Shown here piece by piece: positions 14,110-45,084 of a stretch of DNA of 64,000 bases; within the stretch, counting starts at the first letter, position 1; each line of letters opens with the position of its first letter. The stretch lies in NCBI RefSeq assembly GCF_000420805.1, contig NZ_ATVQ01000001.1, positions 1,116,001 to 1,180,000 on the forward strand, in the 5' to 3' direction. The stretch comes from Yaniella halotolerans DSM 15476. GTDB lineage: Bacteria; Actinomycetota; Actinomycetes; Actinomycetales; Micrococcaceae. Under the pieces are notes generated by a model. That model ran no database searches. It had not been told where the DNA came from and saw only the letters and a list, made by a program, of their open reading frames with translations. Made by a program: the position numbers and the translations under genes.

Positions 14110-15240
14110 CTAGTTCGGAATGCGGATCGGCATGACCAAATACCGGTAGTCCTCATTCTGCGGGCCTTCAAGTTCTTTTTTGCCCGTCAGTAGGGCCGGT
14201 TTTGGTGCACTGGTAAATGCGAAACGGGTGTAAGCCCCACCCATGACGTTGAGACCTTCGGAAAGGTACGAGGGGTTGAAGGCAACGGTAATGTCTTCGC
14301 CTTCCATTTGTACCGGAACGGATTCTGTAGCTGATGCGTCGTCACCTTGGCCTGCAGAAAGCGACACTTCGCCGTTACTAAAGACCATCAGCAGTGAGGT
14401 GTTGCGTTCTGCCACCAACGCAACGCGCTTGACGGCTTCGATCAACTGGCCGGTGTCGACGGTTGCGTAAATGTTGGATTCTTCTGGGAACAGTGAACGA
14501 ATCTTTGGGTATTCACCATCGACCAGCAGGCTGGTGGTGCGACGACCACCTGAGGAAAAGCCAACGAGTTCAGCATCGTCTGTTTCTGTGGCAAAACGGA
14601 ATTCAATTTCTCCGCCGCCACCGAGTGATCGAGCGACTTCGGTTAGCGTACGAGACTTGACCAGTACAGATGTCGAAATCTGTGGATCATGTGGTGTCCA
14701 GGTGATTTCTTTCATCGAGAGGCGGTACCGGTCGGTAGCCAAGAAGGTGATTTTGTCACCTTCAATTTCGATTTTGACTGCGGTCAAGATTGGCAGTGTG
14801 TCATCTTTGGATGCTGCAGCAGTTACCTGAGCGATAGCTTCAGCAAAGACTGAACCGTCAATAGTGCCGGCAACTTCAGGCATAGCTGGAAGTGCTGGGT
14901 ATTCATTGACCGGCATAGTTGCCAACGTAAACGTGGAATTCTGACAAGTAACGACTACTCGAGATTCGGTCAGTTCAATGGTGACTGGGGCATTCGGCAG
15001 CGACTTAACGATGTCACTGAGCATGCGGCCTTCAACCAGAATCTGGCCTTCGGACTCAATATGTGCCTCAACATCGAGTTGAGCAGATGTTTCATAGTCG
15101 AAGCTGGCGATTGAGACGAGGTTGTCTTCGGCGGTAATGAGCAAACCGCGTAAAACCGGTACGGGTGGTCGAGGAGACAGTGAACGTGCGGTCCAAGTGA
15201 CAGCGTCAGTAAGAACATCCCGTCCGATTGTGAACTTCAC
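14110..15240 (-). CDS. dnaN: DNA polymerase III sliding clamp (beta subunit)
   Basis: This 376-residue protein forms the ring-shaped clamp that tethers the replicative polymerase. Three clamp domains are present: [19 protein letters not shown] at the start, then [26 protein letters not shown] in the middle, and PTLT-type motifs replaced in the last domain by [15 protein letters not shown], ending [10 protein letters not shown]. The M-P-(I/V/M)-R-(I/L) C-terminus is the hydrophobic-pocket element. The GTG start at 15240 is chosen because it gives the conserved VKFTIGRD N-terminus and follows a GGGAAGG ribosome-binding site. A longer frame to 15303 has no family support. It is separated from dnaA by oriC. 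Confidence 0.97.
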
Positions 15241-15892
15241 GAAGAGTCTGCCTTCCCTCAGAAAATGGCAATACGCAATTGCCCAATGACAAAAATTGGA
15301 CACCCGAAATTATTAGGGGTGCTTAGACAGCTTAGCGTGATTTCAACTTCCCCGTCGACAAGCAGTTTGAAAAAGCAGTGGAGCTCGAATCAGTTTTTGA
15401 AAAGTGCATCAGCCAGAAGTCCGACTCATCGTTATTTAGAGGTGTTTAAAGGAATGGGGGTATTAGTAGGGGGTGTGGATACTGTGGAAAAGCCTGTGCA
15501 TCGGCGCCCCTATAAGCATTTGCCTGTGGAGCATTAAGTGCAGAGTGCTCGCTTCGGCTGTGGGTAAGTTGTGGGGACATCATTCCCTTACATCGTTGTA
15601 ATTCCACCGATTAAGCGAGTTATCCGCAGCCAGACCCAAGTTGTCCCTTAATTATCAACAGGGTTATCCACAAGGCCTTCAAGAAGCTCTAACCCTATTG
15701 TGGAAAACCTTGTGGATGACTGTGGATGACGGTGGACGCCTGTTTTGAGGATTCGAGGGACGCTCGACTCTCAGGCCGAAATAGGGTTAATAGGGGTATG
15801 TGGAGATCGCTTCAACCTTAACCTGAAGGTATCCACCTAAAACACAGAATTAAACGAATTTTTTGTGGAGTCTGGGATCACACAAAAAATTC
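15241..15892. other. Replication origin oriC (dnaA-dnaN intergenic region)
   Basis: This 652-bp gap between dnaN and dnaA holds a run of DnaA-box-like 9-mers. Positions are 15474 (TGTGGATAC), 15483 (TGTGGAAAA), 15620 (TTATCCGCA), 15652 (TTATCAACA), 15664 (TTATCCACA, perfect), 15699 (TGTGGAAAA), and 15711 and 15721 (TGTGGATGA twice, 10 bp apart). A weaker match lies at 15829. Boxes left and right of about 15640 are partly in opposite orientation. A+T-rich segments flank them, notably 15301-15450 on the dnaN side and 15838-15892 beside the dnaA stop; the latter could be an unwinding element. Gene direction diverges around dnaA (minus-strand genes to the left, plus-strand to the right), consistent with replication starting here. 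Exact unwinding site not determined. Confidence 0.88.
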
Positions 15893-17413
15893 TTAGACGT
15901 TGCGTGCCCGCTGCTTAATTTTGTTCGTAAGTTCCGTGACCTGGTTGTAAATCGCGTGCCGCTGGCTCATCAAATCTCGAATCTTGCGATCGGCATGCAT
16001 CACCGTGGTGTGGTCACGACCGCCGAATTCAGCCCCGATGCGCGGCAATGACATTTCGGTGAGCTCGCGCAACAAGTACATCGCGATCTGTCGGGCCGTA
16101 ACGAGCGTTCGGGTTCGAGACTTCGATTGCAGATCAGCCAAAGTAAACCCAAAGTAGTTCGCGGTTTCATCCATGATCAGATCTGAAGTGATTTCTTGTG
16201 CATCGTCGTCAGTGATCAGATCCTTCAGAATGTACTGAGCCTGGTCGAGATTGATTGGCTCATTATTCAACGAGGCATATGCGGTGACGCGAGTTAGGGC
16301 ACCTTCCAGTTCGCGAATGTTGGTATCGATCCGTGAAGCAATGTACTCCAGGGCATCTTTTGGCACGGTAATGCGCTCGGCATCAGCTTTCTTCGCCAGA
16401 ATTGCGATACGCGTTTCAAGATCTGGTGGCTGAATATCTGTGGTGAGTCCCCATTCAAAACGGGAACGCAGACGCTCTTCGAAACCAGAGAGCTGTTTTG
16501 GAGGCAGGTCTGATGTGATCACAACCTGCTTGTGGTTGTTATAGAGCGCGTTGAATGTGTGGAAGAACTCTTCAACGGTGGCTTCTTTATTCGCCATGAA
16601 CTGGATGTCGTCAATGAGCAAGATGTCCACGTTGCGGTAGATCTGCTTGAAGGATGCGCCTTCATCGTGACGAATCGAGTTAATGAAGTCGTTGGTGAAC
16701 TCTTCGGAGTTGACGTACCGAACGCGTAAACCCGGGAAGAGTTCCTGAGCATAGTGACCGATGGCGTGCAAGAGGTGGGTTTTCCCCAGACCTGATTCCC
16801 CGTAAATGAAGAGTGGGTTGTATGACTTGGCTGGCTGTTCAGACACAGCATAAGCGGCAGCATGAGCAAAACGGTTTGATGAACCGGTGATGAAATTATC
16901 GAAATGATAGTGCTCATTGAGCCGGGACCGTTCACCTGAATGTGGTGAAACAGTTAGCTGAGGGCCACCATAGGGAGCTGCAGCGGGGTTGGTTTGGGAG
17001 CTAAAGAGATCGTCCATGAGCGGTTCATCAGTCTGAGCTTTTTCCGCTGGGGCTTGGGACGCTTCAGATATGTCCACAACATTATCCACAACACGAGATT
17101 CGGGCGTGGATGGTCTTGGTGCGGTCGGAATTTCTGGGGTACTGGCGTGAAGATTGGTGTCGATCGAGTAGGCGCAATTGATATCAGTGCCAAAAACTTC
17201 GGTCAGGGCATCGGCTAGATAGTCGTGTAAACGGTTTTCTAAGATGTCGCGGGTCAACTCATTTGGGACGGCTAACAACAGGGTGTTGGCAATGAGTCCC
17301 TGCGGGTGTGCGAGGTCTAAAAAGCCCATCTGACTAAGGCCTACGTCACCAGAAGCGCGCACTTTCTCAACAACTCGTTCCCACGAGTTGATGATCGATT
17401 CGCTAACACTCAT
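15893..17413 (-). CDS. dnaA: Chromosomal replication initiator DnaA
   Basis: DnaA is the AAA+ initiator that binds DnaA boxes and opens oriC. The 506-residue protein contains domain I (about 1-85), a long Pro/Asp/Ser-rich linker (about 90-165), and the AAA+ core with Walker A GESGLGKTH (205-213), Walker B ILLIDDIQF and sensor/Arg-finger region. The DNA-binding domain IV carries the signature GAEFGGRDHTTVMHADRKI. The start at 17413 gives MSVSESIINSWERVVEKV, as in actinobacterial DnaA. DnaA boxes occur both downstream (oriC) and upstream in its own leader (17491-17606), consistent with autoregulation. Confidence 0.98.
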   Translation of the reverse strand: MSVSESIINSWERVVEKVRASGDVGLSQMGFLDLAHPQGLIANTLLLAVPNELTRDILENRLHDYLADALTEVFGTDINCAYSIDTNLHASTPEIPTAPRPSTPESRVVDNVVDISEASQAPAEKAQTDEPLMDDLFSSQTNPAAAPYGGPQLTVSPHSGERSRLNEHYHFDNFITGSSNRFAHAAAYAVSEQPAKSYNPLFIYGESGLGKTHLLHAIGHYAQELFPGLRVRYVNSEEFTNDFINSIRHDEGASFKQIYRNVDILLIDDIQFMANKEATVEEFFHTFNALYNNHKQVVITSDLPPKQLSGFEERLRSRFEWGLTTDIQPPDLETRIAILAKKADAERITVPKDALEYIASRIDTNIRELEGALTRVTAYASLNNEPINLDQAQYILKDLITDDDAQEITSDLIMDETANYFGFTLADLQSKSRTRTLVTARQIAMYLLRELTEMSLPRIGAEFGGRDHTTVMHADRKIRDLMSQRHAIYNQVTELTNKIKQRARNV

Positions 17414-20283: not shown

Positions 20284-20964
20284 TTGACCGAGAATCCTAT
20301 TCCTGACGCTGATCCATCCGACGCCGAACTCGGTCGCCAAGAAGACTGGGTTGTTGACGCTGTCGAGGTGCTCTACGGAGAATCCACAGCTACCGTCGAA
20401 CGGTTTGTACACCACCTCGTGACAACTGGCATCGAGTGGGGACTCCTTGGACCCCGAGAGATCCCGAAAATGTGGGATCGACACGTGCTCAATTGTGCTG
20501 TGGTTCAAGAGCTGTTGCCCAAGGGCGCCCTTGTCGCCGATGTTGGCTCAGGTGCAGGACTGCCCGGTATCGCTCTGGCTATCGCTAGACCAGATGTCCA
20601 GTTCGTTCTCATCGAGCCATTAGAACGACGTGTCGACTGGTTAGAAATGGTCGTTGAAGATCTTGAACTGGAAAACGTCGATGTTGTACGTGCCCGTTCA
20701 GAACAGGTCTTCGAAACGGTCGATGTGGATATAGTGACCGCACGTGCTGTTTCGGCAATGAAATCTCTAGTTCCGATGACTGTGCCGCTACTGCATGGCT
20801 CGGGTGAATTACTAGCGATTAAAGGCAAAAGTGCTGCCAATGAAATTGAAAAGGCAGATAAAGTTTTGCGCAAATTCAAAACGAAGCACTCGGAAGTTCT
20901 TACAGTCGGGGACGAACTCTTGGCAGTTCCCACGACTGTTGCAAGACTTACGTATGATTCCTAA
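20284..20964 (+). CDS. rsmG: 16S rRNA (guanine-N7) methyltransferase RsmG
   Basis: RsmG methylates a conserved guanine of 16S rRNA (G527 in E. coli numbering). The 226-residue protein shows the SAM-binding loop VADVGSGAGLPGIALAIARP, the acidic FVLIEPLERRVDWL, and later AVSAMKSLVPMTVPLLHGSGELLAIKGKSA. The start is TTG at 20284, just after the jag stop; the acidic opening TENPIPDADPSDAELGRQ is typical of actinobacterial versions. It precedes the partition genes, as in most origin regions. Confidence 0.95.
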   Translation: MTENPIPDADPSDAELGRQEDWVVDAVEVLYGESTATVERFVHHLVTTGIEWGLLGPREIPKMWDRHVLNCAVVQELLPKGALVADVGSGAGLPGIALAIARPDVQFVLIEPLERRVDWLEMVVEDLELENVDVVRARSEQVFETVDVDIVTARAVSAMKSLVPMTVPLLHGSGELLAIKGKSAANEIEKADKVLRKFKTKHSEVLTVGDELLAVPTTVARLTYDS

Positions 20965-21009: not shown

Positions 21010-21945
21010 TTGGTCGAGAAGGAAAATGTTTCAGGTGAAACTGCGCAGTCTACGAATAGCGCTGCTTCGACACCGCTGGCCAGACAGTTGGAGTCAGAAA
21101 AGCGTCGACGCGAGAAGTTGAAAACAAAGCGGATGCCAAAGCCTGAACACACTCGCATCATGACGATTTCTAACCAAAAGGGTGGCGTCGGTAAGACTAC
21201 GACGACGGTGAATGTTTCGACCGCTATGGCGCGTGCTGGCATGAACGTTTTGGTGATTGACACCGACCCCCAGGGTAATGCTTCGACCGCGTTGAATATT
21301 GACCACCATCAAGGTGTCCCCTCGATCTACAACGTCCTTATCGAAGACTATGACCTGAAGGACGTACTTTACGAGAACCCGGACACTGACGGTCTCCTAG
21401 TCGCCCCATCGACAATTGACCTCGCTGGCGCAGAGATTGAGCTTGTCTCACTTGTTGCACGCGAGCAGCGACTCTCGCGTGCCCTCGACCGCTACTTCGA
21501 GTATCGCGAAGAAGTAGGCCTTCCTCGTATCGACTATGTTTTTATTGATTGTCCACCGAGTCTTGGATTATTAACCGTAAACGCTTTCGTTGCTGCGAAT
21601 GAAGTACTGATTCCGATCCAGACTGAATACTATGCACTCGAGGGGCTTTCACAGCTGGTTAAGAATATTCAGATGATTCAGGAACACCTTAATCCTGCGC
21701 TGCATATCTCTACCATTCTTCTCACGATGTATGACTCGCGGACAAACCTTGCAGTGCAAGTTGCCGAAGAAGTCCGGGATTACTTTCCGCAGCAAGTGCT
21801 AGATGCTGTCATTCCAAGGAACGTACGTATTTCTGAAGCCCCCTCGTACCAGCAGAGCGTTCTCACTTACGACCCAAGTTCCACCGGCGCCCTCAGCTAT
21901 CGCGAGGCTGCTATGGAGATAGCTTCTCGGGGTAATGCTCAGTAG
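21010..21945 (+). CDS. parA: Chromosome partitioning ATPase ParA (Soj)
   Basis: ParA is the deviant-Walker ATPase that binds DNA nonspecifically and moves ParB-parS complexes. The 311-residue protein has a 45-residue, Lys/Arg-rich N-terminal extension, then ISNQKGGVGKTTTTVNVST with the KGGxxKT signature (invariant Lys62), VLVIDTDPQGNASTA and YVFIDCPPSLGLLTVNA. Start is TTG at 21010, preceded by GGGAGG with 5-nt spacing; no better start is seen. A one-mismatch parS (21028-21041) falls inside the 5' coding sequence. parB is not adjacent but 1.9 kb away, beyond a parS array. Confidence 0.95.
   Translation: MVEKENVSGETAQSTNSAASTPLARQLESEKRRREKLKTKRMPKPEHTRIMTISNQKGGVGKTTTTVNVSTAMARAGMNVLVIDTDPQGNASTALNIDHHQGVPSIYNVLIEDYDLKDVLYENPDTDGLLVAPSTIDLAGAEIELVSLVAREQRLSRALDRYFEYREEVGLPRIDYVFIDCPPSLGLLTVNAFVAANEVLIPIQTEYYALEGLSQLVKNIQMIQEHLNPALHISTILLTMYDSRTNLAVQVAEEVRDYFPQQVLDAVIPRNVRISEAPSYQQSVLTYDPSSTGALSYREAAMEIASRGNAQ
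21028..21041. promoter_or_regulatory. Near-parS (one central mismatch) inside parA
   Basis: GTTTCAGGTGAAAC differs from the parS core GTTTCACGTGAAAC at one central base (C to G), which breaks the perfect palindrome. It encodes V-S-G-E-T of ParA's extension. It may be a weak ParB site or chance. Confidence 0.4.
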
Positions 21946-22147
21946 TGAACAGTCATTTTTCCACGTCATAGTCGTCAGTTAGTTCGCGCCGCTCAATTAT
22001 AGCTCTGTAAACTGACTGCCGAGCATACTAGTCCTTTGACGTGAAAAAGGATTCGCCAGGCTGCTATGGTGTCTTCCTTTGGTACCTCGTTCTACCGACT
22101 CGTCGGCGGTAACTCTGTTCCCCTGAATCGTGATATAGCGCTAGAGC

Positions 22148-22161
22148 GTTTCACGTGAAAC
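22148..22161. promoter_or_regulatory. parS: parS site 1
   Basis: Perfect 14-bp core GTTTCACGTGAAAC, flanked by C on both sides. Leftmost clear site of the array. Confidence 0.92.
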
Positions 22162-22292
22162 CACCGGATAGCTATATAGTCGTTTGCGTCTGCGCACTCA
22201 TGCCAACGTTTGGTTTGTCCAAAATATTGTATTAGGTGCGTAGAGTCGCAATTTAAACTCAACTGGAAAATTGGACCGTGCGGGTTCGGGAC

Positions 22293-22306
22293 GTTCCACG
22301 TGAAAC
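22293..22306. promoter_or_regulatory. parS: parS site 2 (one mismatch)
   Basis: GTTCCACGTGAAAC: one T-to-C change in the left arm compared with the core. It lies 145 bp after site 1, so it keeps the array's spacing and is probably still a (weaker) ParB site. Confidence 0.8.
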
Positions 22307-22466
22307 ACGGACCGGTATGTCAATACGACGTGGTGCTTGGCAGATACGTAGCTATTGAAGCAGCAAATCGTTGTCATTACATATCTAAGCCCGCCATCAG
22401 CTCAAAGCACTAGGCTTCGCCAATATATCGATTAAATCTGGCACTATGAGTTTGGGCGTTGCCCCC

Positions 22467-22480
22467 GTTTCACGTGAAAC
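22467..22480. promoter_or_regulatory. parS: parS site 3
   Basis: Perfect GTTTCACGTGAAAC core, 174 bp after site 2; flanked C/T. Confidence 0.92.
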
Positions 22481-22611
22481 TCTGCGTGCTATTACGAGCG
22501 GGTTCCATATAGCGGATCGTGTCCAGGTATTAGGTGCACTTTTGCTGAGATTAGTTTCAGTATGCAAGCCAACACCGTGTCAGTTTTGAAGGACCAAACT
22601 TTTACGGAAAC

Positions 22612-22625
22612 GTTTCACGTGAAAC
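22612..22625. promoter_or_regulatory. parS: parS site 4
   Basis: Perfect core, 145 bp after site 3, the same spacing as between sites 1 and 2. Confidence 0.92.
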
Positions 22626-22801
22626 GAGATTAGACGCACTCCAACGCGAGTTCGGTAAGACTAGTTTGGGTAGCAAGCTGATTAGTGAATGCTCAACAAA
22701 CACTCAATCGTTAGAGAACCACAGCAGACGATGCACGGAAGCTGGTACACTCTTCGGGGCTAGACACTCTGGTGTATAAAAGTTCAGGAACATAACCTTG
22801 C

Positions 22802-22815
22802 GTTTCACGTGAAAC
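22802..22815. promoter_or_regulatory. parS: parS site 5
   Basis: Perfect core with the extended right flank A (GTTTCACGTGAAACA), 190 bp after site 4. Confidence 0.92.
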
Positions 22816-23061
22816 ACGAAAACTGTGCAGTACTCGATGCCGAGCAGTTTATGCTGGCGACGATCGATAGACACATATTCTTGCCATTTGAGTCTATGTA
22901 CAAACCTCATATATGTGTGTCGTAAAACTAGGCCCTCACATAGAAGTAGTCTGTTTTCGTTAGCGGTCTCACCTGCGATTGCCCACGGTACCCAACGAAT
23001 AATACACAGCATGACATGTTGAGCATGGTACGGGTGAGGGTTGCGATTGGTTCTCGCGCTG

Positions 23062-23075
23062 GTTTCACGTGAAAC
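23062..23075. promoter_or_regulatory. parS: parS site 6
   Basis: Perfect core after the longest gap in the array (260 bp). Confidence 0.92.
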
Positions 23076-23193
23076 GTCATTTGAGAAACCATGTTCGAGG
23101 CACCTATCCAGGGCAAAGCAGACCATATCATGCTGTACCTAGGACAATCATCAAAAAGTACGCTCTGCTCCTGCTTCTAATGCTTGGAAAAGG

Positions 23194-23207
23194 GTTTCAC
23201 GTGAAAC
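23194..23207. promoter_or_regulatory. parS: parS site 7
   Basis: Perfect core with right flank A, 132 bp after site 6, the shortest gap in the array. Confidence 0.92.
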
Positions 23208-23357
23208 AACCCAGGTAAGAAAGTGAGATCGTCCCTCTATGAGAACCATACGCATTGATTGCTGTCGTGGATAAAACTTAGCTGAATCACGACTCTGGCG
23301 ATATCACAACACCAAGTTTTAGTCGTATAAGAGAGTAGTAATCCGCCTAACTCATAT

Positions 23358-23371
23358 GTTTCACGTGAAAC
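23358..23371. promoter_or_regulatory. parS: parS site 8 (full 16-bp consensus)
   Basis: The full consensus TGTTTCACGTGAAACA is present at 23357-23372, so this should be one of the strongest sites. Confidence 0.95.
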
Positions 23372-23600
23372 ATTACAACCATTCAATCTTCCTTGTCCTC
23401 TATCCACCAAGAGAAGTTCACCTCACTACCGGGGCTAGACGTGATGGTATGTGCGGAAAATTCTGCTCACATGTCCCGATAAGCTGCTAAAAACAGTGTT
23501 TTCACTATAAAGCGGGTGGAGTACGGGCTAGCGTCTAAACCAACTGTACATTCTGGACTCATCGAGCCCAAGTCAGCCTGTGGAGGCTCGGGATAGAAGC

Positions 23601-23614
23601 GTTTCACGTGAAAC
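23601..23614. promoter_or_regulatory. parS: parS site 9
   Basis: Perfect core, flanked C/C, 243 bp after site 8. Confidence 0.92.
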
Positions 23615-23768
23615 CGAATGCTGAAAACAAGTAGCGCTCACCTATTGCGGCGCTGGCCGACGACTGCAAATATTCTTTGACCTATTTTGAGCTCGGCATC
23701 AGACAAAAAATGGAGGATTAAATTGCAAACTATCGACCAACGATAGCTGGTGGCAGAACACAACGCGT

Positions 23769-23782
23769 GTTTCACGTGAAAC
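23769..23782. promoter_or_regulatory. parS: parS site 10 (full 16-bp consensus)
   Basis: TGTTTCACGTGAAACA is complete at 23768-23783, only 70 bp before the parB start codon. ParB bound or spreading here could repress parB. Confidence 0.95.
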
Positions 23783-23852
23783 ACAGCAAACAGCAGGAAT
23801 AGCAGATATGCTAGGTGTGGCTGTAGTTTCAGAAGCAACAACGGAGGTATTG

Positions 23853-25181
23853 ATGGCGCAACAACCCAAGAAATCTCGTAGAGGATTGGGTCGAGGACTG
23901 GGTGCTCTGATACAGAACACATCTCAGGAAGAACCTGCACCAGAAGAAATCGAAGAAGCACCGGACCAGCAGGAAGCTGCACCAGCAGCAGACGAGAATC
24001 GATCTGCAGAGGCATTCATCATCGCAGATGAAGCGCCAAAGATTGATTTATCGCAAGATACTGAACCTGTTGAATCTCGCTACCTGGAAGGCGTACGACC
24101 CGCCAGTAGAAGACGCCGTCCGTCAGACCTCTTCTTTGGAGATGATAGCGCGGACGACAGTGACTCCGAGACCGCTCCCGTGAACACAAGTTCCAGTATC
24201 ACGTCAGGAACTCCATCTGTAGAGCGAACAAAGGCTAGCCGTGCCGCTATGCCAAACCCGATACTCGAGCGTCCACGGAAGAAAACTACCGAAGTGTCTG
24301 CAGAAGAAACCGCAGTAGAAGGACCTGCCGTTGAAGAGCTGCCTCAAGAAGTGACCGAGACGGAGCAGGGCAGCTTGCTGAACGAGATTCAAGTAGATGC
24401 CATCGTCCCGAACCCACGACAACCACGTGAAGAGTTTGACGAAGAAGCAATGGTCGAGCTTGTCGCTTCGGTGGCCGAGGTAGGGGTTCTACAGCCTGTC
24501 GTCATTCGACCTACTGACACCCAGGGCAAGTATGAACTCATCATGGGTGAGCGCCGTTGGCGCGCGAGTAAACGTGCCGGACTAGACACTATCCCGGCGA
24601 TCGTTCGCGATACTGCCGATCAAGATCTCCTGCGTGATGCACTTCTCGAAAACATTCACAGAAGTGAACTGAATGCGCTTGAAGAAGCCGCAGCTTATCA
24701 GCAGCTGATGAATGACTTCGGTTGGTCACAAGAGATCTTGTCGAAACGTGTGGGCCGATCACGGCCACACATTTCAAATACGCTGCGCCTCATGAACCTG
24801 CCCCCTGCTGTGCAACGTCAGGTCGCAGCCAACGTGTTATCGGCTGGACATGCACGTGCCATTCTCGGCGTCAATGACGAGACGTTGATGACCCAGTTAG
24901 CACAGCGCGTCATCAACGAGGGCCTGTCAGTCCGTGCCACTGAAGAGCTCGCAAGTCTCATGCTACGGAACATGCACAATGCAGGTCAGCTTGCTCCACG
25001 CCCTCGTCGAAACACTCAGCAGTTCGATGAGTTGGCGTCAACACTGACGGATCTCCTCGATACCTCCGTGAAGATCACCCTCGGAGCCAAGAAGGGACGT
25101 ATCGCGATCGACTTTGCGTCTGTCGATGATCTCAACCGGATCATGGCTGTCATCAATAGTGAGGCTACCGAAAACGAATAG
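23853..25181 (+). CDS. parB: Chromosome partitioning protein ParB
   Basis: ParB is the CTP-dependent clamp that loads at parS. The 442-residue protein has the ParA-stimulating basic N-terminus SRRGLGRGLGALI (8-20), then an unusually long acidic/Ser/Glu-rich linker (about 21-175). The CTPase domain has NPRQPREEFDEE and GERRWRAS (232-239), plus ENIHRSELN (266-274). The helix-turn-helix is around SKRVGRSRPHISNTLRL, followed by a C-terminal dimerisation domain. The ATG at 23853 is chosen because GGAGG lies about 7 nt upstream and MAQQPKKSRRGLGRG is the family N-terminus; an earlier in-frame start at 23808 has no support. The ten parS sites lie directly upstream. Confidence 0.96.
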   Translation: MAQQPKKSRRGLGRGLGALIQNTSQEEPAPEEIEEAPDQQEAAPAADENRSAEAFIIADEAPKIDLSQDTEPVESRYLEGVRPASRRRRPSDLFFGDDSADDSDSETAPVNTSSSITSGTPSVERTKASRAAMPNPILERPRKKTTEVSAEETAVEGPAVEELPQEVTETEQGSLLNEIQVDAIVPNPRQPREEFDEEAMVELVASVAEVGVLQPVVIRPTDTQGKYELIMGERRWRASKRAGLDTIPAIVRDTADQDLLRDALLENIHRSELNALEEAAAYQQLMNDFGWSQEILSKRVGRSRPHISNTLRLMNLPPAVQRQVAANVLSAGHARAILGVNDETLMTQLAQRVINEGLSVRATEELASLMLRNMHNAGQLAPRPRRNTQQFDELASTLTDLLDTSVKITLGAKKGRIAIDFASVDDLNRIMAVINSEATENE

Positions 25182-26701: not shown

Positions 26702-28408
26702 CTAATTGACGTCGATTTCCGCGATGCGTAGACCGTATGGTCGTTCAGGCGAATTAGTATTCGACAGGGTCGGTAGTTCGGTGAAGTTGATGATCACGTA
26801 GCGGGCTTCAATGGGCTCGCCGTCTTCGTTGTGGGCATCAACCGTATATTCGGGTCCGGTGAATGAACCATCGGTGAGCATGACGCCACCTGTTGGATCC
26901 GGTTCGTTGGAAACGGCCACCGTGAATGCCCCACCGCTGCCCTGATTCTGGGCAATGGTGATTTCCGAGATCGGGGCCTTTTCTTCCAGCTCGACCACCA
27001 GTGCGAGGTTGGAGGCGAATCCACCAAACTGCGGGCTGGTGAACGTCAGGGTGTGCCAGGCGGTTGCTTGGTTACCATCGACGATCGCTGGTAGATCAGA
27101 CTCGTACTCGTTGGAGAGCTGTGGTGCATCCGGTACGACACGTTCTACCGAAGCTGGGACGGGGTCGGGTAGATCCTCGGATTCCTCTTCGTCGGGTTCA
27201 TCCGTCTGTCCGTCGGCCGGTTGTTCTTCGGTTGGTTCCTCGGCGACCGGTGGCTCTTCTTCCTGTTCAGGGGAGCCTAGGAATTGGAAGCCAACGATGA
27301 CGGCACCGACGAGGACAGCAACGAGCAAGAGGCCCGCGAGCCAACGTCCCAGGGTGGAACGCTGCCGCTCATCGGTGTATTGGATGGCGTAGCCCTCTTC
27401 AGCGGTGGGCTCGTCGGGTGCGGGTGGTGGGATAATCGGTGCAGCAGCGCGTTGCTTGGAACGCTCTTCTGCTGGTTGGTCCGGTGCAGGTTCCTGGGCA
27501 GCGGCAGCTTGTGGTTGGCTCTGGGTGATCGGCTCTTGGGTCACCGGTGGAACGATCTGGGTGCGCTCTTCCGGTGCTTCTTCTTCAGGTTCAGAATCGA
27601 CCGGTTCTTGCGGCGGCGTTGGCTGTTGCGGTTGGCCAGGCTGGACGCGCTCTTCGACCTCATCGTCGTCCTGGTCATCATCCAGGATCGGCAGCTTGGA
27701 ACGGGCTGGTTCTTGCTGCTCGGTCTGCTCCGTCTTCGGACCGTCAGTATCGTCGTCATCGCTGTTCTTCGATGCTCCGGCTGCAGCGGCACCTGCACCG
27801 GCTGCCGCACCCAGGCCTGCGGCAGTACCAATGCCGGATTTACCAGAGGAATCATGGGGACGTCCGGGAGCAATGGGGGCTTCGTTATTCTCGTCCTGTA
27901 GCCAGTTATCGATGCGATCGGAGAGCTTATTCAAAAACTCTGGACGATTTGAGCCTTCGTCCTGTTCTTCTTCCAACTCATCTTGAAGATCAGCGTAGTA
28001 CTCGGCGTCATCATCAAAGGTTTGTGGCGTATTCGACCGGGATTCGCCAAAGAGTTCGGTGCCCAGGGCTTCGGTGAAGAATGGTTCAACGTAGACCTCT
28101 TGGTTGGTCAGCAGCGCCAACAGGGCTTCGACGTCAGAGTTGCCGGGTGCAACCAGATAGGTGCGGTCATTCGACAGGCCCAGATCCAGAATTTGGATCG
28201 AGCTGGCGCGTTCACCGGTGGCCAACTGGCGGGCAGATTGTGCGGCCTGGGAAGCGTTCTCACGCGAAGCGACGAGGATCAGCACCTCGCGGTTGAGTAC
28301 CTGGTCGAGCCCGTTGAGCACCTGATCGCCTTGCGAGGATGCCATGACGCGTCCGGTGATCTGGTAGCGGCCACCAAGTACCGCGCCTTCGTCTAAGTTG
28401 GCCACCAA
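26702..28408 (-). CDS. Kinase-like (pseudokinase) membrane protein with discoidin-like exterior domain
   Basis: This 568-residue protein sits directly downstream of murJ. Residues 8-100 look like the N-lobe of a Ser/Thr kinase (LGGRYQITGRVMASSQGDQV) but lack the catalytic lysine (REVLILVAS where VAVK is expected), and no HRD or DFG is visible. A long acidic, Pro/Gln/Glu-rich linker (about 130-350) follows, then one transmembrane segment (LAGLLLVAVLVGAVIVGFQF, 357-376) and an outer domain (about 420-568) of the discoidin/galactose-binding type (PAIVDGNQATAWHT, LVVELEEKAPISEITIAQ). The known M. tuberculosis MviN carries MurJ, pseudokinase and such a domain in one chain; here they are two genes. 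A peptidoglycan-regulation role is inferred. Confidence 0.7.
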   Translation of the reverse strand: MVANLDEGAVLGGRYQITGRVMASSQGDQVLNGLDQVLNREVLILVASRENASQAAQSARQLATGERASSIQILDLGLSNDRTYLVAPGNSDVEALLALLTNQEVYVEPFFTEALGTELFGESRSNTPQTFDDDAEYYADLQDELEEEQDEGSNRPEFLNKLSDRIDNWLQDENNEAPIAPGRPHDSSGKSGIGTAAGLGAAAGAGAAAAGASKNSDDDDTDGPKTEQTEQQEPARSKLPILDDDQDDDEVEERVQPGQPQQPTPPQEPVDSEPEEEAPEERTQIVPPVTQEPITQSQPQAAAAQEPAPDQPAEERSKQRAAAPIIPPPAPDEPTAEEGYAIQYTDERQRSTLGRWLAGLLLVAVLVGAVIVGFQFLGSPEQEEEPPVAEEPTEEQPADGQTDEPDEEESEDLPDPVPASVERVVPDAPQLSNEYESDLPAIVDGNQATAWHTLTFTSPQFGGFASNLALVVELEEKAPISEITIAQNQGSGGAFTVAVSNEPDPTGGVMLTDGSFTGPEYTVDAHNEDGEPIEARYVIINFTELPTLSNTNSPERPYGLRIAEIDVN

Positions 28409-43834: not shown

Positions 43835-45084
43835 CCCAATTCCTTGATGATCTAGCCGAGTTCATACACACTTCACCGACCCCGTATCACGTAGTCGCCC
43901 AGGTGGCCTCCCGCGCCACCGAAGCAGGATTCACCGTGGTCAACGACACTCCGGGCGAGCTGCCTGATGCCCCCGGCGGCTACGTCTTAGTTCGTGACGG
44001 CGCCGTCATCGTCTGGCACGTGCCCGAAAACCTGCCCGAACACCCAAGCTTCCGCATCGTTGGTGCCCACACTGATTCCCCAACATTTCGCGTGAAACCA
44101 CTGCCGGATAATACCTCGGCCGGCTACAACCGTGTCGGAGTCGAAGTCTATGGCGGAGCGCTCGCAAACTCCTGGCTCGACCGGGATCTAGGCTTCGCGG
44201 GTCGCCTGATCACCGAACACGGCGAACACCTCGTCCACACACCCCCCATGGCGCGCATTCCGCAGCTAGCCATTCACCTGGACCGCAGCGTCAACGAGGG
44301 GCTGAAGCTGGACCGCCAACACCACCTGGTGCCCATCGTCGGGGCCGGCGGTGAGGTCAACATCATCCACGAAATCGCGAAGTATACCGGCGTCGATCCA
44401 GCCGAAATTACCGGATTCGACCTGCTGCTCACCGATACTCAGCCCCCGGCAACACTGGGTGTTCATGACGACTTCTTCGCTGCACCGCGCTTGGACAACC
44501 TCGTCTCCGTCCACGCCGGACTGCGTGCGATCCTCGACGCCGAATCGGACAAGATCACCATGCTGGCGGCCTTCGACCACGAGGAAGTCGGCTCCGAAAC
44601 CCGCACCGGCGCAGGTGGGCCGCTCCTTGAAGAGATGCTCACCCGCATCCTCACCGCCCAGAGCATTCCGTCCCACTTGCACCGCAGCATCATCGCACAT
44701 TCGATACTGCTCTCGGCCGACGGCGGCCACCTGGTCCACCCCAACTACACTGAACGCCACGACGCTGATCACCGACCACAGCCCAACGCCGGTCCGATTC
44801 TGAAAGTTAACGCCACCCAGCGTTACCTCTCTGACGGGCGCGGCGCCGCCAAGTTCACCCGCTGGGCCGAACGCGCAGAGGTCCCACACCAGGTGTTCGT
44901 GTCGAACAACAACCAGCCGTCCGGGTCAACGATCGGCCCGATTTCGGCTACTCGTTTGGGTATTGAAACCATTGACGCCGGCATTGGCCTACTCTCGATG
45001 CACTCGGCACGCGAAATGTGTGGTGCCCAAGACCCAGAGCACCTGTCCAAGCTGGCCGCAGCGTTCTACGCAGATCAGATCTAG
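43831..45084 (+). CDS. M18-family aminopeptidase
   Basis: This 417-residue metallopeptidase shows the M18 zinc-ligand set: VGAHTDSPTFRVKP (His), DDFFAAPRLDNLVS (Asp), AAFDHEEVGSETRTGAGG (Glu/Glu) and the late HS-x-x-REMCGAQDPEHL with the C-terminal His. It removes N-terminal (often acidic) residues from peptides in the cytoplasm. Starts ATGA within the upstream gene's stop and is followed after 16 bp by a small membrane protein gene. Length is normal. Confidence 0.95.
   Translation: MTQFLDDLAEFIHTSPTPYHVVAQVASRATEAGFTVVNDTPGELPDAPGGYVLVRDGAVIVWHVPENLPEHPSFRIVGAHTDSPTFRVKPLPDNTSAGYNRVGVEVYGGALANSWLDRDLGFAGRLITEHGEHLVHTPPMARIPQLAIHLDRSVNEGLKLDRQHHLVPIVGAGGEVNIIHEIAKYTGVDPAEITGFDLLLTDTQPPATLGVHDDFFAAPRLDNLVSVHAGLRAILDAESDKITMLAAFDHEEVGSETRTGAGGPLLEEMLTRILTAQSIPSHLHRSIIAHSILLSADGGHLVHPNYTERHDADHRPQPNAGPILKVNATQRYLSDGRGAAKFTRWAERAEVPHQVFVSNNNQPSGSTIGPISATRLGIETIDAGIGLLSMHSAREMCGAQDPEHLSKLAAAFYADQI

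Follow-up and report, generated by a model that had tools for sequence, protein, structure and literature searches.

Organization of the parA–parB locus

The window, by which we mean the whole 64-kb stretch of DNA analysed here, carries parA and parB separated by a spacer that bears an array of parS sites. parA (21010..21945, plus strand) encodes a chromosomal Walker-type ATPase (Pfam AAA_31, 2.3e-57) and has gidB/rsmG (20284..20964, plus strand; Pfam GidB, 1.3e-48) as its upstream neighbour. The ParA protein, with 311 amino acids, is of the short chromosomal kind, and no DNA-binding domain occurs among the seven Pfam families matched. parB (23853..25181, plus strand) encodes a protein of 442 amino acids with a GLGRGL motif at its N-terminus, an acidic linker and the ParB_N, HTH_ParB and ParB_C regions; Pfam domains PF02195, PF17762 and PF23552 account for the N-terminal, helix–turn–helix and C-terminal dimerisation parts. 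GERRWR and ENIHR, readable in the translation, we take to be the CTP-pocket motifs. The best start of parB is the ATG at 23853, which lies behind GGAGG. Starts of parB were re-estimated across the loci compared below, and a few outside the window's genus look misplaced (for example L137 and L148).

The gene order is dnaN-dnaA-...-rnpA-yidD-yidC-jag-gidB-parA-array-parB; beyond parB, trxA and trxB are encoded on the opposite strand. Pfam identifies dnaN, dnaA, jag, gidB, parA and parB; the remaining genes near the array are presumably rnpA, yidD, yidC, trxA and trxB. With dnaN and dnaA at 14110-17413, the array lies a few kilobases from dnaA and thus near oriC, as in chromosomal ParABS systems. 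Nine DnaA-box matches were found in the window, three of them in and beside dnaA (15664, 17082 and 17491). The contig is 1.59 Mb long and its gene context is that of a chromosome rather than a plasmid; SMC and ScpA genes are present in the genome above the curated cut-offs. Further along the window, 26702-28408 (minus strand, adjoining murJ) encodes a protein with an extended acidic central part, for which Pfam gives nothing stronger than weak matches (DUF6479, and F5/8 type C below the cut-off). Its N-terminus resembles a kinase-like domain, which invites comparison with the pseudokinase linked to MviN in mycobacteria.

The spacer between parA and parB (21946..23852, 1907 bp, no strand assigned) was delimited from the ORF list and the choice of parB start and searched against Pfam and Rfam. 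Of the reverse-strand ORFs within or overlapping it, two were searched and neither matched a Pfam family; a search of 21800-24000 gave no Rfam match at E <= 1; and the longest open frame in the spacer (144 codons) is not significantly longer than in shuffled sequence (mean 107, P 0.08). These searches revealed no hidden RNA or gene, and the gene-free stretch described in an earlier, sequence-only reading of this DNA does indeed contain no recognisable gene. There is no evidence of a terminator after parA, since 21800-24000 holds three terminator-like sites where 2.0 are expected.

The parS array and its uniqueness in the assembly

Sites were searched for with the palindromic 14-mer GTTTCACGTGAAAC. 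At up to two mismatches, 12 matches occur in the 64-kb window, compared with a mean of 0.35 and a largest count of 4 in 100 shuffles. The array itself, to which no strand is assigned, comprises nine perfect copies at 22148..22161 (parS 1), 22467..22480 (parS 3), 22612..22625 (parS 4), 22802..22815 (parS 5), 23062..23075 (parS 6), 23194..23207 (parS 7), 23358..23371 (parS 8), 23601..23614 (parS 9) and 23769..23782 (parS 10), together with parS 2 at 22293..22306, which has one mismatch (GTTCCACGTGAAAC). The sequence-only reading had counted nine perfect copies and one single-mismatch copy within 1.64 kb, with ParB encoded 70 bp beyond the last site; our count over 22148-23782 and the interval from the end of parS 10 to the parB ATG agree with both, and the extent it gave, 22148..23783, starts correctly and ends one base too late. 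A two-mismatch match lies apart, at 44085.

The genome-wide search for the 14-mer that the same reading had suggested was made in the assembly of 2.78 Mb in six contigs, so that sequence missing from the assembly could still carry a site. Allowing up to one mismatch, it returned 11 sites, all at the parA–parB locus: besides the ten array members there is one near the 5′ end of the parA coding sequence. The reversed control pattern returned none. Every one of the nine perfect copies in the assembly belongs to the array. Tandem duplication was considered as the origin of the array and rejected, as its three direct-repeat families are all centred on the parS-like motif and their flanks are weak.

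The site in the 5′ coding region of parA (21028..21041, no strand assigned) differs from the consensus at one position (GTTTCAGGTGAAAC). In the sister loci L091 and L095 the equivalent position, 918-921 bp ahead of the parA stop, carries a perfect site. Near this place, taken as about 910-1190 bp before the parA stop, the site has one mismatch in the window and in genome G002 and is perfect in G003, G008 and many other family members. One possibility is a long-standing parS in coding DNA that has decayed where the spacer array is rich.

Conservation within the genus, the family and beyond

The nearest named relatives of the window are Yaniella and Enteractinococcus: ParB is 81-97% identical at the named loci of Yaniella sp. 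(L051), Candidatus Yaniella (L052 and L053) and Enteractinococcus coprophilus DSM 24083 (L054), and 54-57% identical at the other four of the eight named loci. Within the window's genus, ParB is present in eight of nine genomes, the exception (G007) being 71% complete. All seven loci with a complete spacer carry the array in it, with 6-10 sites at up to one mismatch in 1.68-3.40 kb, so that the comparison of the parA–parB interval in relatives proposed earlier finds the array kept. Together with the confinement of all perfect sites of the assembly to the array, this is the sequence evidence that the earlier reading had named as support. In G004 the contig ends before parA; six perfect sites precede parB, consistent with an array, and a seventh lies on another contig.

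For the family, which we take to be the Micrococcaceae, 112 stretches around parB were collected, including the window, G002 and G004; three (L092, L134 and L196) do not contain parA and were excluded, leaving 109 loci. At least three sites lie in the spacer in 35 of these (11 genera), and the spacer is at least 800 bp long in 35 (10 genera). It is shorter than 150 bp in 48, none of which has two sites in it; the sites of such loci are found within parA or parB, or further downstream. Outside the family, none of 32 loci has a site between parA and parB, in a non-random sample made up of eight loci picked for parS hits, four named loci (two nearly alike) and the 20 best remaining extra-family ParB matches, five of which have no perfect parS in the stretch. 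These counts for the genus, the family and beyond indicate a layout common to a lineage, and the 48 short spacers indicate that segregation as such can do without an enlarged spacer. The locus had been proposed as a distinct partition-locus architecture, which holds in that the layout is unusual and fails in that it is not peculiar to this genome.

Every perfect parS of the genome falls within the parAB stretch (up to 19.5 kb, or the window) in 32 of the 34 family loci compared. The earlier reading had contrasted the locus with familiar actinobacteria, in which parA and parB are adjacent and parS sites are spread over many kilobases around oriC; in this family 48 loci have the short spacer, and the sites are generally grouped tightly around parAB, as in these 32. 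The two exceptions are G010 (genus g3), with four of its 11 perfect sites in the 19.5 kb around parB, and G013, with six of seven. A separate observation concerns G072, of a related genus, where an IS110-family transposase gene (L136:4737-5999; Pfam DEDD_Tnp_IS110) lies inside a 6.8-kb spacer with 11 parS-like sites, presumably as an insertion element within what is presumed to be the centromere.

The linker of ParB had been described as unusually long and acidic. It is indeed acidic, with only two of the 109 family loci showing a higher net negative charge per residue; its length is ordinary, as the 172 amino acids before the core exceed those of 62 loci in a range of 63-387, and we do not regard this mid-rank length as special. 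Spacer length and linker length correlate across the family loci (Spearman 0.38), a value from which we draw no conclusion because the genomes are related.

A FastTree phylogeny built from ParA together with the core of ParB (121 rows, none of them plasmid proteins) places the window with its genus. The array-bearing genera g13, g15, g4, g2 and g1 group together, with a support of 0.52 for the whole group and 0.90-1.00 at the inner nodes that join genera. The sister of g1, the window's genus, is g17 (G024, L111), which has a spacer of 98 bp with a single imperfect site, an apparent loss of the array. The genera g21, g14 and g11 also have at least three spacer sites, as do single genomes in g12, g3 and g6. 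The tree fits both an early origin of the arrangement in the family, followed by its loss from the large short-spacer clade, and more than one origin.

Spacing and divergence of the array

The start-to-start spacings in the window are 145, 174, 145, 190, 260, 132, 164, 243 and 168 bp. The smallest, 132 bp, has P = 6e-5 under uniform placement of the sites in the spacer, in a locus tested because its spacing had already been singled out. The corresponding values for the other six genus loci are 0.001, 0.008, 0.011, 0.005, 0.12 and 0.48, and the spacing is over-even in five of the seven loci and not in G005 and G006. Without the window, Fisher's combination gives 2.5e-6, which is too optimistic because the loci are related (in three of them, the last two sites precede parB by 68-70 and 238 bp). 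Across the family, P < 0.05 for evenness is reached by nine of 27 in-spacer arrays and, among the 38 clusters that lie beyond the start of parB, by four. Regular spacing does not hold as a general rule, since g11, g13, g14 and all five g4 arrays fall short of P < 0.05. Helical phasing at 10.5 bp, the best of five periods tried, is not convincing either (R 0.109 for 174 in-spacer spacings, about 0.067 by chance; R 0.182 for 78 exact-site spacings, about 0.100 by chance). Of the suggestion that the spacings of 132-260 bp, twice exactly 145, may be functional, the evenness survives as unusual and the coinciding pair means nothing alone.

The bases between the sites have changed thoroughly among close relatives. 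ParA of the window is 95.8% identical to that of G002 and 96.8% to that of G001, and the spacer, with its last 75 bp removed and the sites masked, shares 9 and 12 9-mers with theirs, compared with shuffle means of 9.2 and 9.9 and maxima of 22 and 25. No count of shared 10- to 12-mers exceeds the shuffle maxima for these two genomes, and the 60-bp flanks of the second- and third-last sites show an ungapped identity of 15-27%. Four-fold degenerate positions of parA are themselves near saturation (identity 0.43 with G002 and 0.41 with G001; 0.39-0.43 over parA and parB), and hence the spacer need not outpace neutral evolution; an accelerated spacer is not needed to explain the data. It is against this nearly saturated background that the parS sites are conspicuous.

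The last site and the putative parB promoter

All seven genus loci with a complete spacer have a site 68-76 bp ahead of the parB ATG; in all five g4 loci the distance is 44-48 bp. Between the last site and parB we place a putative promoter and leader (23783..23852, plus strand) that contains the GGAGG and, chosen by visual inspection, a TATGCT resembling a -10 element; its first 60 bp are 62-63% identical to those of loci L089 and L090. Compared with G002 and G001, identity is 0.62-0.63 over the 60 bp after the last site and 0.33 and 0.47 upstream of it. A sigma-70 consensus scan of 21800-24000 found no promoter where 2.8 are expected.

From the position of a parS adjoining this putative promoter we infer a negative feedback on ParB, and give about an even chance that ParB represses its own gene through the last site. 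The excerpted literature points both ways: in Mycobacterium bovis BCG, a parS overlaps a -10 hexamer that precedes gidB, and a regulatory effect has been suggested (PMC2346475), whereas in Bacillus subtilis the loss of Spo0J left the expression of parS-adjacent genes unchanged (PMC7022226), which, like the empty sigma-70 scan, counts against autorepression.

Discussion

The array is very likely the main, and probably the only, chromosomal centromere, belonging to a ParABS system whose parS sites are gathered in an expanded parA–parB spacer near dnaA. It is established in other systems that ParB loads at parS with CTP and slides. Here the ten sites, standing close together, would be entry points for ParB–CTP clamps, which would then slide onto adjacent DNA and condense it into one partition complex moved by ParA. 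The array would serve as a strong, gene-poor loading zone and would mark one loading spot for SMC–ScpAB, giving one entry point per origin, and ParB on the last parS may repress parB and so set its own level. Binding, sliding, condensation, SMC loading and autorepression are all predicted here from the sequence.

Excerpts of published work bear on whether many sites are of use. Clustered parS sites are common, within 5-40 kb, and their clustering in B. subtilis is thought to limit collisions of SMC complexes (PMC8357415). Condensation by B. subtilis ParB in vitro under force needs between five and seven parS sites and rises with their number (PMC8299390). Against a need for many sites, the secondary diagonal in the contact map of Corynebacterium glutamicum persisted with parS1 as the sole site (PMC7083940), and a single parS is reported as sufficient in P. 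aeruginosa (PMC4368675).

How far selection has shaped the layout is a separate matter. One tentative possibility is that the spacer is a dedicated centromere in which selection keeps the length, the site count, a separation of at least about 90-135 bp between neighbours and the site at the parB promoter, leaves the bases free, and lets the array sense the level of ParB. Equally tentative, and compatible with a centromere role, is a neutral origin in which the spacer grew by chance, parS sites gathered in gene-free DNA and the layout as such has no function. The position of the cluster is flexible, to judge from family members in which it lies downstream of parB or in parA; the four-fold sites are nearly as diverged, so that the spacer bases call for no special explanation; and evenness is missing in G005, G006 and several other genera. 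Such a useless spacer, however, would be expected to shrink, whereas all seven complete genus loci keep 1.7-3.4 kb with 6-10 sites, more evenly spaced than random in five of them.

It is improbable that the array is mainly regulatory, with ParB-bound sites silencing or tuning parB and uncoupling it from parA, and with the centromere role secondary. The constant site before parB in the genus and in g4, the promoter-associated site of M. bovis BCG (PMC2346475) and the reported repression of promoters next to parS3 and parS4 in P. aeruginosa (PMC5521831) are what such a role would lead one to expect. One or two sites would be enough for it, yet 6-10 are kept at each complete genus locus, and the assembly offers no other perfect site to act as centromere. 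Capture of a plasmid or phage partition cassette is scarcely credible: a clustered, iteron-like centromere in a par cassette does resemble plasmid loci in general, and the likeness drawn earlier to a plasmid centromere is fair to that extent, but a plasmid nature is at odds with the common chromosomal parS consensus and with the gene order dnaN-dnaA...jag-gidB-parA-parB; the window also groups with its genus, in a tree built without plasmid proteins.

The chromosomal centromere that we favour has counterparts in the systems described in excerpts of the literature. Closest in compactness is Myxococcus xanthus, where 22 parS sites form a 3-kb cluster near parAB, compared with ten in 1.64 kb here; that cluster is bound by ParB in vitro. 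It differs in lying about 4 kb upstream of parA and not between parA and parB, in its consensus TGTTCCACGTGGAACG, and in that the two genes share a transcript and are located about 35 kb from oriC (PMC3899335). C. glutamicum likewise has an actinobacterial ParB–SMC system with ten sites (parS1-10) near oriC; there, however, the sites extend over 35 kb, 73 kb from oriC, one of them inside trpCF, with three zones of ParB propagation (PMC7083940). Mycobacterium shares the order jag-gidB-parA-parB, and M. bovis BCG has parS in the coding DNA of parA and at a promoter; it has two parS sites in all, none described in the parA–parB spacer in the excerpted text, and in M. smegmatis this spacer is 59 nt (PMC2346475). 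Bdellovibrio has two parS sites near its origin (PMC10547168). Among the other genomes of the family the cluster is tight around parAB and, in several genera, lies inside an enlarged spacer. Among the papers listed by searches of open-licence PubMed Central texts we have not met a parA–parB spacer array in print, and the survey of Livny and others (2007) may list related cases. Compact parS clusters are thus already known, and the present locus is most likely a chromosomal ParABS centromere of the ordinary type whose unusual layout is shared across a lineage.

The locus offers natural arrays of 6-10 loading sites, varied in spacing and set in otherwise unconstrained DNA, with relatives that have the layout and relatives that do not. 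They provide a ready comparative test of how the number, spacing and position of parS affect condensation and the loading of ParB clamps and of SMC; the papers cited approach these questions with engineered sites. The parS beside parB makes self-regulation of ParB testable in a chromosomal system. If the dedicated spacer outlined above were true, it would be a compact centromere defined by the geometry of its sites rather than by its sequence, which would also sense the level of ParB.
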